64,000 nucleotides of DNA, from assembly GCA_025463125.1 (NCBI GenBank), contig JAOAPX010000041.1, forward strand, positions 1 to 64,000, written 5' to 3'. The notes under the pieces were generated by a model, which had not been told where the DNA came from, did no database searches, and saw nothing but the letters and a program-made list of their open reading frames with translations. This stretch comes from Acidobacteriota bacterium. Its GTDB lineage: Bacteria > Acidobacteriota > Blastocatellia > Pyrinomonadales > Pyrinomonadaceae. The position numbers and the translations under genes are program-made. Below are positions 56,247 through 59,699 of this stretch, one piece after another; within the stretch, counting starts at the first letter, position 1, and each line of letters starts with the position of its first letter.

Positions 56247-57107
56247 TTATTTCTTTTTTAAAAGCGCCTCCGAAATTCTCGCAAAAGCAGGCTTCGAACG
56301 TTTTAGAAGGTTTCCGATCTGATAATACAGCCGGCTTCCTTTATCAAAATCTCCTTCCATTTCCACGGTCGCCTGTACGGGGTTCGGCGGTATGCGCTTG
56401 CGTATCTGCTGTAAAAGGTATTCTCTATCTCCGAGTCGTATATGCAAAGGCTGCAAACGCACTTCGCTCCGCCATTCTTTTTCGACAGCCCTTGTCAGCC
56501 ATCCTGGCAGATTTTTCGCTTCGCCGGCAAACGGCAAATCGTCTACAAAAAGGTTCAGGTATTTATGCGCTAGTCCGATCGTGCAAATTATCCAGCGCCG
56601 CCTGCGGGAGCTTATGATGTTCAGGCATCGTTCCCAATCGAAATCTTTCGGGCGGTTTTCTACGGCGTAAAAGATGTCGTACAACCTGTGTTTGTACGCG
56701 CCGCCGTCAGTCAGCCAGTGAACGCATAAAACGCGCAGATGATCTTCCGGGCGCAATACACGGACAGCGGTTTCATTTATTTTAACGATTCTCGAATTTT
56801 CAAACAAATTATCCCATTCAACCGAATCGAGATGTCTCGCCCCGCAATGAATATCAACGCGCGAAGGCTCTTCAAACGTTTCAAGACGCAAAAGCGCGTC
56901 TTTGTATTTTCCCGGCTCGATCATAAAATCGAAATCCGTAAAATTCCGCATCTTCGGATCCGGGTAAAACTGCGCCGCGCTCCAGCCTTTAATTAAAATA
57001 GGCTTGAAACCGGTTTCTTCAAACCATTTCCAAGCCTTTTCTAAATTATGTTCCTGAACTTTATAGAAAATTGTTTGAAATTTATTATCAACAATTTCCG
57101 GACTCAT
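56247..57107 (-). CDS. Nucleotidyltransferase-like family protein (NTP_transf_5-type)
   Basis: Start [10 protein letters not shown] (57107) preferred; [67 protein letters not shown]. Confidence 0.8.
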
Positions 57108-57114
57108 CTGTCTT

Positions 57115-57684
57115 TTAGCCCTTTTTGCTCGCAGCGGTTTTTGCTCCTGCCGTTGCGATACATTCGCAAGTGGCACCCGCGCCCGAACATCCGCACGCAA
57201 ATCCGGCACCACAAGCGGGGCTGCAGCTTGTACAAGGGGTTCCTCTGTTACAATTTCCCGTTCCGCAGCTGTCAGCCGTCTGAACGCCTGAACAGGCAAC
57301 AGCCAGAACTGCCGTCGGAGCGACCAACGATGCGATAACCGGCAAAGCTACGACCGAAGCGAACCCGATTTTCTTTAAAACCGAACGTCGACTTTCACCG
57401 GCAAATTTTGAAGTAACGTTTGTTTCTAAAAGATTGCGTTCGTTTAACTGGTCGATTGCGAGCCAGATAAGATCTTCTTCGACCTTGGTTCCTGATTGTT
57501 TTTCAAACTGCAAAACAATTTCGCTTACAGATGTTTTACCATCGCAATTTTTCCAAACGAATGCCGCCGTTTGGTTTAAGCAGTGGGCTTTATCAGTTTT
57601 CAAATCATAAACCAATACTTCATCTGGCATTTCCTGTATCACCAGTCCGTTTTTACGAGCCGTAGGGGCTTGTGGGTTATTCAT
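57115..57684 (-). CDS. PqqD-domain protein with twin-Arg/TM-like segment and Cys-rich C-terminus
   Basis: PqqD-like [38 protein letters not shown]...; [31 protein letters not shown]; 10 Cys in the tail. SD ggagaaat before 57684. Confidence 0.8.
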
Positions 57685-57721
57685 TATTTCTCCTCCGAAA
57701 TTCATCTTAAGATGTATAGAA

Positions 57722-58561
57722 TTAAATTTTAAAAGCTAGTTTTGCAAAAAAACTTTTAATGAGCAAAGCAGTATCTACCGCTTCAGCTCGCATAGTTTTT
57801 GTGATTATTGCACGTTCGGCAACTTTATTCAACACATTTAACGTAAATTCAGGCTTATTTCTTATCGGTATCGTGTGCGGAAGAATTTCCATAATTCCTT
57901 GTCCGGCACTGAGTTGCTCGGGTTTCCATTCCGCGCCTTCGACATACTCGGTAATCAAAACCATTGCCACGGGTACCGCGTCCGTACCCGCGACGGCACC
58001 GAACTCCTCGACCGGCAGATCTTTCTGCGCGTATTGATCAATAATACCCCGCACGGAAAGCATTTTCGGAAACGGGTGAACATATCCGTTTTCATCTAAA
58101 ACCGCGTATTCATCGGAATAATAAACTGCTCCCTGCCTGATCAAAGCCGCGACAAGCGAAGTTTTCCCATGGTAGCTTCTCGCTGGAATGACAATCGCTT
58201 TTCCGTCGATGGCGACAACGCCTGCGTGCAGAAACACTCTGCCGACGGCAAACTCCGCAACCGTAATCCGAACTTTGCTTTCGAGCGTATCAAGCAGAAA
58301 TTCAAATGAAACGTCGGAAACTATTTTTTCTTTGTTTTTCTCCAGCGAATAAGTAAAATTATCACCGTTTATATAAAAAATATGATCGCTCGTCTGATTT
58401 TCAACCAGGTTAAATTCCCTGCTCAGGCTATCGGCGAGACAATTTTTAATTAAATTAAAATCAATATCGCAATCCGCCTCGATGCTGATTTTAACGCCGT
58501 AGGATTCAAAGCTTATTTTTTTTTGCTTTTCTTTTAATTCCTTTTTCACTTCGTTTTCCAT
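57722..58561 (-). CDS. HPr(Ser) kinase-like protein
   Basis: FLHAGVVAIDGKAIVIPARSYHGKTSLVAALIRQGAVYYSDEYAVLDENGYVHPFPKMLSVR. Confidence 0.85.
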   Translation of the reverse strand: MENEVKKELKEKQKKISFESYGVKISIEADCDIDFNLIKNCLADSLSREFNLVENQTSDHIFYINGDNFTYSLEKNKEKIVSDVSFEFLLDTLESKVRITVAEFAVGRVFLHAGVVAIDGKAIVIPARSYHGKTSLVAALIRQGAVYYSDEYAVLDENGYVHPFPKMLSVRGIIDQYAQKDLPVEEFGAVAGTDAVPVAMVLITEYVEGAEWKPEQLSAGQGIMEILPHTIPIRNKPEFTLNVLNKVAERAIITKTMRAEAVDTALLIKSFFAKLAFKI

Positions 58562-58578: not shown

Positions 58579-59607
58579 CTAATTTGTTTTAACAAACAAT
58601 TTTCTATGGCTCAAGACCAGGAGACCGAGCGATTGCAGGAAAATTAAAATGAAAACCGGCGCGAAAAAAAGACCGCCGTAATTGAGCCAGATCAAAATTA
58701 AAATTAATACCGTAATAGAGCAAGCGCCGTATAAAATCGTCACAAATCTATGTGTAAATCCTTTTATGACCAGCCGTTGATAGATGTGCTCGCGATGCGC
58801 CGTCCAAATCTTTTCTTTTTTTAATAAGCGCCGAAATAAAGTAAACGCCGAGTCGAATACAAAAAACCACACTAAAACGACGCTTAAAACCGGAAAAAGA
58901 TAAAATTGATCCGGATTTTCCTTTTTAGCAATCAGCGGCAAAACAGCAAACGAAAAACCCAGGAAGGCGCTGCCGACATCTCCCATAAAGATTTTTGCGG
59001 GCTGCCAGTTATGCATCAAAAACCCGAGACAGGAAAAAGCGATGATGCCGCCGTAAACTGCCGATTCGTCCAGTCCGAGCATTTTACCGGCAAGAAACCA
59101 TCCAAGCCCCGCCGTGACCGCCTGCAATCCGGCAATCCCGTCAATCCCGTCCATAAAATTATAGGCGTTCGTCAGCCATACAATCCATAGAAAAGAAAAT
59201 ACAAACCCGGCTCTTCCCGTTTCAAAAGTTCCTAAAAAAGGCAGATATAAAACGTCTATATAACCGTAACTGTAAATAATCAGAGAAGTTGCGATTGCGT
59301 GAACTAAAAATCTCCATACCACCGAAATTGAACATAAATCATCGAGCCAGCTGATTGATGTAATCAGAAAAGCCGCCGCCACATAAGAATATTCAACCGT
59401 CCCGTTATTTATAAACGTGTAAACGGAATAAAAAAGTATTGAAATTATTACGAAAATCAAACCGCCGCCGCGCGGAACCGGCGCCTTATGCGAGCTGCGT
59501 TCGTTCGGAATATCATAAATCTGCTTTTTCGTACTCCAGCGCCGAAACCATTCAACACCGATGTATGAAAGCAAAAATGTTGTTAAAAATAAAATAAATT
59601 CAGTCAT
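58579..59607 (-). CDS. Polyprenyl-phosphate glycosyl-1-phosphate transferase (WecA/MraY family)
   Basis: IPNERSSHKAPVPRGGGLIF; WLTNAYNFMDGIDGIAGLQA; IFMGDVGSAFLGF; ATG at 59607 (MTEFILF). Confidence 0.92.
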   Translation of the reverse strand: MTEFILFLTTFLLSYIGVEWFRRWSTKKQIYDIPNERSSHKAPVPRGGGLIFVIISILFYSVYTFINNGTVEYSYVAAAFLITSISWLDDLCSISVVWRFLVHAIATSLIIYSYGYIDVLYLPFLGTFETGRAGFVFSFLWIVWLTNAYNFMDGIDGIAGLQAVTAGLGWFLAGKMLGLDESAVYGGIIAFSCLGFLMHNWQPAKIFMGDVGSAFLGFSFAVLPLIAKKENPDQFYLFPVLSVVLVWFFVFDSAFTLFRRLLKKEKIWTAHREHIYQRLVIKGFTHRFVTILYGACSITVLILILIWLNYGGLFFAPVFILIFLQSLGLLVLSHRKLFVKTN

Positions 59608-59608
59608 T

Positions 59609-59699
59609 ATTTGCAAACATCATTTGCGGACATCATTTGCGGATATTACTTACGAACATCATTTGCGAACATTACTTGCGGGCATAATCTGCGAACATT
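59609..59699 (-). repeat. 7 x 13-bp tandem repeat filling the intergenic gap; encodes overlapping mini-ORFs
   Basis: atttgcaaacatc/atttgcggacatc/atttgcggatatt/acttacgaacatc/atttgcgaacatt/acttgcgggcata/atctgcgaacatt. Confidence 0.92.

Follow-up and report, generated by a model that had tools for sequence, protein, structure and literature searches.

A PqqD-type recognition domain fused to a Tat-like signal and a variable cysteine-rich tail: a candidate RiPP-like peptide system beside an HprK-related kinase in Pyrinomonadaceae

Could a protein that starts with a RiPP recognition element (RRE) and ends in a row of cysteines be recognition domain and substrate at the same time? The question is raised by a gene of an Acidobacteriota bacterium of the family Pyrinomonadaceae (assembly GCA_025463125.1), which lies in the first 64,000 nt of contig JAOAPX010000041.1, the stretch referred to here as the window. 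A preliminary description of the window reported a PqqD-domain protein with a twin-Arg/TM-like segment and a 10-Cys tail, placed between HprK-like and nucleotidyltransferase-like genes, and suggested that a recognition domain carries its own Cys-rich substrate across the membrane. The features of the locus are listed below.

57115-57684, minus strand: the whole precursor-like gene (RRE, Tat-like signal, Cys tail), 189 aa.
57439-57645, minus strand: PqqD/RRE domain, residues 14-82 of the precursor-like protein (PF05402, predicted fold).
57301-57393, minus strand: Tat-like signal segment, residues 98-128, with a predicted signal-peptidase site after VLA (RR motif, relatives).
57118-57300, minus strand: variable tail rich in Cys, presumably the core that is exported; its block of 10 Cys is coded at 57160-57294 (sequence, Cys parity).
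57722-58561, minus strand: HprK-related kinase (TIGR04352, 2.4e-13, below cut-off; fold; invariant columns).
56247-57107, minus strand: NTP_transf_5 nucleotidyltransferase-like (NTase) gene (PF14907, 2.2e-18; invariant columns).
58579-59616, minus strand: WecA/MraY-type glycosyl-1-phosphate transferase of the same gene run, context rather than core (PF00953, 8.9e-34).

The ATG of the precursor-like gene is preceded by a GGAGGAG Shine-Dalgarno sequence, and gaps of 37 and 7 nt separate the gene from the kinase and NTase genes, respectively. The three-part protein and its close packing between these two neighbors were thus confirmed (PF14907, 2e-18; HprK/PEPCK fold). Together, the three-part protein and the gene order are far beyond chance and recur in dozens of genomes. 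The WecA-type gene is the first of the exopolysaccharide genes, which form a long run upstream of the kinase, precursor and NTase genes in a Pfam scan of the contig, and on the NTase side the open reading frames read as tsaB, rimI, accA and dnaE. The genome of the window is a single-copy case, with one PqqD-domain gene. The polysaccharide cluster (L170:6729-7751; G000:C55, about 68.7-69.8 kb) encodes a fusion of a cytidylyltransferase-like and a SIS sugar-isomerase domain.

The PqqD-like nature of the N-terminal domain was borne out by sequence and by predicted structure. In the Pfam search, PF05402 matches residues 22-71 with an E-value of 5.4e-8, above the gathering cut-off. Since sequence searches of the PDB with the kinase, precursor and NTase profiles gave no significant matches, folds had to be compared. 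In the AlphaFold2 prediction, built on nine related sequences, residues 14-82 have strands at 14-18, 23-27 and 32-36 and helices at 38-46, 53-64 and 70-82 (βββααα, pLDDT 81-91), a three-stranded sheet followed by three helices that resembles known RREs. The top Foldseek match in the PDB is the lasso-peptide RRE TbiB1 with bound leader (5v1u/5v1v; E 6e-5, TMt 0.73-0.75), followed by TruD, another lasso B1 and PqqD. Outside the RRE, a helix spans the RR segment, and the tail, modelled at low confidence, contains a hairpin.

The segment behind the RRE looks like a Tat-type export signal. The motif SRRSVLKK leads into a hydrophobic stretch that ends in AxA (VLA), and TatC is encoded in the same genome, so that RR motif, h-region, cleavage motif and translocase gene are all present. 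All 146 full-length relatives carry the RR after the RRE, and the four open reading frames that lack it are truncated. Its context in relatives, S/T-R-R-x-[VLIA]-[ILV]-[KR], is the Tat consensus. The cleavage site can be placed in 114 relatives, with mostly A, V or I at -3 and A at -1, and the A-x-A ends five residues past a conserved Pro; the Pro itself served to place the site, and alignment A2 gives separate evidence that P123 does not vary. A stretch of hydrophobic residues behind a folded domain, which the model renders in part as helix at low confidence, would also suit a type II membrane protein, in which an uncleaved anchor keeps the RRE in the cytoplasm and displays the Cys tail at the surface for sensing or adhesion under control of phosphorylation. 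The conserved A-x-A in the placeable relatives, the strict RR and the moderate hydrophobicity broken by Pro are typical of a cleavable Tat signal and make such an anchor improbable.

The leader is conserved, whereas the tail changes fast. The 10 Cys fall within 45 residues (131-175), coded exactly by 57160-57294, as the preliminary description had stated. Relatives share on average 44% pairwise identity in the RRE, 50% in the RR segment and 17% at the non-Cys positions of the tail, and 138 tails show 119 distinct Cys spacings. The tail is nevertheless not random in close relatives: its sequence and spacing vary, whereas Cys richness and Cys parity are kept. The number of Cys is even in 141 of 144 tails and mostly lies between 6 and 20 (6 Cys in 68 tails, 8 in 30, 10 in 15, 12 in 8 and 14 in 9; more rarely 16 in 2, 18 in 4, 20 in 1, and 0 or 2 in 4), and two of the three odd tails appear truncated or frameshifted. 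Within two single genomes the count is even in 32/32 and 19/19 tails. Other residues of the same tails are even in 47-55% of cases and the Cys of other Cys-rich open reading frames in 56%; the binomial value for the parity, 4e-38, comes from related sequences and so is not a probability.

Parity that survives repeated gain and loss of Cys is the signature of complete disulfide pairing. Even counts, together with the lack of YcaO and LanC-like genes in the five genomes searched and of a lasso B2 match (PF13471) in the genome of the window, make disulfides the simplest state of these Cys, and the modification of Cys that the preliminary description implied was not supported. Exported miniproteins with paired disulfides are thus a more probable reading of the tails than cores with thioethers, azoles or bound metal. 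A classical Cys-modified RiPP with such a core, made by enzymes encoded elsewhere in the genome, is very improbable: radical SAM, YcaO and dehydratase enzymes often work with an RRE and the genome holds one SPASM match on contig C173, but neither YcaO nor LanC-like genes occur in the five genomes, SPASM has no match in three of them, and these chemistries give no reason for an even count. The SPASM-domain (radical SAM type) match itself lies at G000:C173:57194-57349.

Of 138 tails, 47 contain C-C-CC-C-C, the order of cystine-knot peptides, against a mean of 4.9 and a maximum of 10 after shuffling. The family shares with knottin miniproteins this framework in some relatives and a conserved leader with a hypervariable Cys-rich core; it differs in being bacterial and in its RRE leader, and the tail of the window, spaced 8-4-5-2-3-5-1-6-1, lacks the framework. 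The dN/dS of leader and tail gives no ground for claiming positive selection on the tail: synonymous sites are saturated in most pairs, and in the 14 usable pairs median omega is higher in the tail (0.22) than in the leader (0.09) yet far below 1. Truncated or frameshifted copies, with an RRE lacking a tail or a tail split from its RRE, were seen at L154:2788-3084, L127:2494-2959 and L114:3539-3964; L114 contains N, and the damaged copies reflect paralog decay or assembly error.

The protein is encoded in 84 of 119 genomes of Pyrinomonadaceae, and its presence follows that of the two enzymes. Precursor and kinase are both present in 81 genomes and both absent from 32, with 3 + 3 discordant (agreement in 113); for precursor and NTase the numbers are 80, 31 and 4 + 4 (agreement in 111). 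Fisher tests over the 119 genomes give p = 4e-22 for the kinase and 6e-20 for the NTase. The neighborhood survey therefore upholds the expectation that the tail travels with the HprK and NTase genes, the tail itself accompanying the RRE-Tat leader. Of the opposite suggestion, a structural domain with unmodified Cys and no tie to these genes, the part on Cys may apply, whereas the part on association fails, the association being strong. The three genomes that bear a precursor and lack the kinase count against a kinase-dependent system. Outside two expanded genomes described below, 96 precursors were surveyed on the same strand within 1.5 kb: 46 have both enzymes, 12 only the kinase and 15 only the NTase, and 23 have neither, some of them at contig ends, which also counts against it. 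When linked, the kinase lies upstream in 54/58 cases and the NTase downstream in 61/61.

The family is scattered over several families of Acidobacteriota, with matches at E<=1e-6 in 66 of 396 genomes; weaker matches cover the PqqD part only. Relatives with named records are Pyrinomonadaceae or Acidobacteria MAGs, and L003 and G111:C508 are one and the same contig, from the genus of the window. In another phylum, the megaplasmid of Gemmatirosa kalamazoonensis (Gemmatimonadota; L172, NZ_CP007129.1 1032830-1049264) encodes a kinase and an RRE-RR-tail protein with 6 Cys; an NTase gene lies near the pair on the opposite strand, in a record without annotation.

The kinase is related to HprK at the level of fold. 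The gene has no Pfam match, and against TIGR04352 (HprK-related kinase A) it scores 49.8 bits under a curated cut-off of 200 bits, so that it shares kinship with HprK_rel_A and is not a member. HprK_rel_A, too, is probably associated with PqqD and NTase genes. The model (pLDDT 85.6) matches the PEPCK/HprK superfamily in the PDB, including HprK/P of L. casei. Across 18 homologs (alignment A1), H112, G132, K133 and D150 do not vary, and the residue after D150 is Glu or Asp; the protein of the window has the P-loop G132-K133-T134 and then D150-E151. The HprK fold, the His, the P-loop Lys and the D-D/E pair of an HprK-like peptide kinase are thus all found. In BsfK, mutagenesis showed that the H, K, D and D residues matter (PMC10368454). 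The protein of the window carries Glu (SDE) where HprK kinases have their second catalytic Asp, a point against the reading proposed below. In the NTase, K40 G41, D58, D60 and D85 are invariant columns (alignment A3).

HprK-like kinases are known to modify RiPPs. They phosphorylate the C-terminal Ser of paeninodin and pseudomycoidin, and PsmN of the pseudomycoidin system installs a hexose or possibly, instead, a nucleotide (PMC9266682). BsfK phosphorylates core Ser3 of Bsf lasso peptides and is strongly stimulated by the RRE protein B1 (PMC10368454). LppK phosphorylates core Ser3 of linear polyphosphorylated peptides (LPPs) with the help of an RRE, a signal-peptidase homolog removes the leader, and the clusters lie in capsular polysaccharide loci (PMC13381572). 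In our family, Ser stands at +2 of the predicted cleavage site in 54% of relatives and at +3 in 32%, and a Ser within +1 to +4 occurs in 89% against 33% expected, which resembles the Ser3 of LPP and Bsf cores. In the protein of the window, Ser is first met at +4 (VACS) rather than at +2 or +3, which counts against phosphorylation, and Ser near the AxA could instead be a preference of the signal peptidase or of structure.

Because HprK-like kinases phosphorylate Ser in RiPPs and Ser is enriched beside the predicted site, a mechanism with the RRE acting in cis is proposed. The C-terminal peptide would be presented by its folded RRE leader to the HprK-like kinase for phosphorylation of a Ser or Thr at the start of the core, and the NTP_transf_5 enzyme would then derivatise the added phosphate. 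Export of the core across the membrane would fall to the Tat-like signal that links it to the RRE, and a signal peptidase may cleave past the AxA and so remove RRE and signal together. The even set of Cys would close as disulfides, and the exported miniprotein, small and stable, would perhaps be linked to the polysaccharide that the adjoining genes make for the cell surface. We rate this reading, a RiPP-like phospho-peptide system with the RRE fused to the precursor as its leader and Tat/signal-peptidase export, as somewhat better than an even bet. Phosphorylation of Ser/Thr is the modification that the kinase and NTase predict, and it was absent from the preliminary description. Its central idea, a recognition domain that carries its own Cys-rich substrate, is largely supported by the RRE fold, the Tat-like signal, the tail that travels with the leader and the association with kinase and NTase. 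The fused RRE might bind something else.

Two genomes extend the picture. G007 and G034 (loci L041-L056 and L150-L168) each hold at least 28 dispersed precursors and one kinase, an expansion that is unusual for a bacterial precursor family; either genome has 35 PqqD matches, which probably include a few discrete ones. None of the 53 precursors examined in them lies within 3 kb of the kinase, and no neighbor of the orphan copies is enriched in these genomes beyond the precursor family itself. Some of the RRE-Tat-Cys paralogs form tandem pairs or quartets. In G034 (C31:64327-66008) and in G005 (C323:2720-4364), the kinase gene directly neighbors the NTase gene, no precursor gene intervenes, and precursors are dispersed elsewhere. 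The simplest reading of one kinase, many distant precursors and such enzyme pairs is a single enzyme set that would act in trans and could serve many precursors per genome. G007 has no full-length NTase match, which counts against the phospho-peptide reading. At G007:C5:530158-532606, this genome pairs a lasso-type B2 (PF13471, 3.4e-23) with a discrete PqqD match (3e-17) some 2 kb away, a separate and possibly lasso-type cluster.

The main rival is a plain exported disulfide-rich miniprotein: its tail would have no RiPP-type modification, its RRE would anchor the protein in the cytoplasm, check its export or act as a chaperone, and the kinase and NTase would modify some other target in the polysaccharide pathway beside them. 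A simple secreted family would account for the Cys parity and the hypervariable tails, and this rival also suits the dozens of orphan copies far from the kinase, the three precursor-bearing genomes that miss it and the exopolysaccharide genes next door. Against it stand the tight co-occurrence with kinase and NTase over 119 genomes and the fixed gene order, the linkage that recurs in Gemmatirosa, and the fact that RRE, HprK-like kinase and NTP transferase are the known set of phosphorylated RiPPs. We regard it as rather unlikely, yet well ahead of a membrane anchor or Cys-modified core. Returning to the phospho-peptide reading, its fuller form, a new RiPP class with an RRE-fused leader and a hypervariable disulfide-rich core that is phosphorylated and further derivatised in the cytoplasm, exported by Tat, and served in trans at more than 28 precursors per genome, is tentative and falls a little short of even.

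The closest known system is that of the LPPs of Bacillota (PMC13381572, 2026), which share the HprK-like kinase, the RRE, the NTP transferase, leader removal of signal-peptidase type, a conserved N-terminus with a highly variable C-terminus, the capsular or exopolysaccharide setting and a Ser beside the cleavage site. In LPPs, however, the RRE is a discrete protein that binds a YxxP leader and the separate precursor carries YxxPxVLxHQ; the system of the window has neither, its RRE is fused to the precursor, and its 189-aa protein contains no YxxP or WxxP motif. LPP clusters have a SipW-like peptidase and an MsbA-like exporter, in place of which a Tat-like signal and AxA are found here; neither peptidase nor exporter was detected in the Pfam scan of the window and upstream genes or among the downstream open reading frames. 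Even, Cys-rich tails are not described for LPPs, and the phylum differs. The phosphorylated lasso peptides (paeninodin with PadeK, pseudomycoidin with PsmK/PsmN, and BsfK) share the HprK-like kinase and a PqqD-like B1 (PMC9266682, PMC10368454), and paeninodin and pseudomycoidin also the NTP transferase (PMC9266682), whereas the genome of the window lacks a B2 protease, and there is no asparagine-synthetase-like cyclase beside the genes and no separate short precursor. The nitrile-hydratase-like leader peptides (NHLP) of proteusins (PMC12455567) are likewise folded and domain-sized, and one enzyme may serve many precursors; their fold is unrelated and the RRE is in the enzyme, whereas here the RRE is the leader. 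The system of the window therefore belongs neither to the LPPs nor to the lasso peptides; if the model holds, its logic is that of a phosphorylated RiPP whose RRE has been relocated to the precursor.

An RRE-fused precursor, an RRE in cis as leader, or PqqD with HprK was not found described in the literature searched, outside which most subscription journals lie. Because the protein travels with kinase and transferase genes, it appears to represent a so far unreported family of peptides that are modified and exported. In a survey of RREs, 21% of PF05402 proteins exceeded the length of a discrete RRE without other annotation (PMC12710340), and the RRE-Tat-Cys family would fall among these overlong PF05402-only proteins; if the model is true, it would give a function to part of them. 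The RRE-dependent RiPPs known so far have the recognition element in an enzyme or in a separate adapter. An RRE within the substrate would remove the problem of leader recognition and would explain how a single kinase can cope with dozens of precursors to which it is not linked. RiPP enzymology and the Tat export of disulfide-rich miniproteins would come together in one system, and soil-type Acidobacteriota would then hold a natural library of hypervariable exported peptides.
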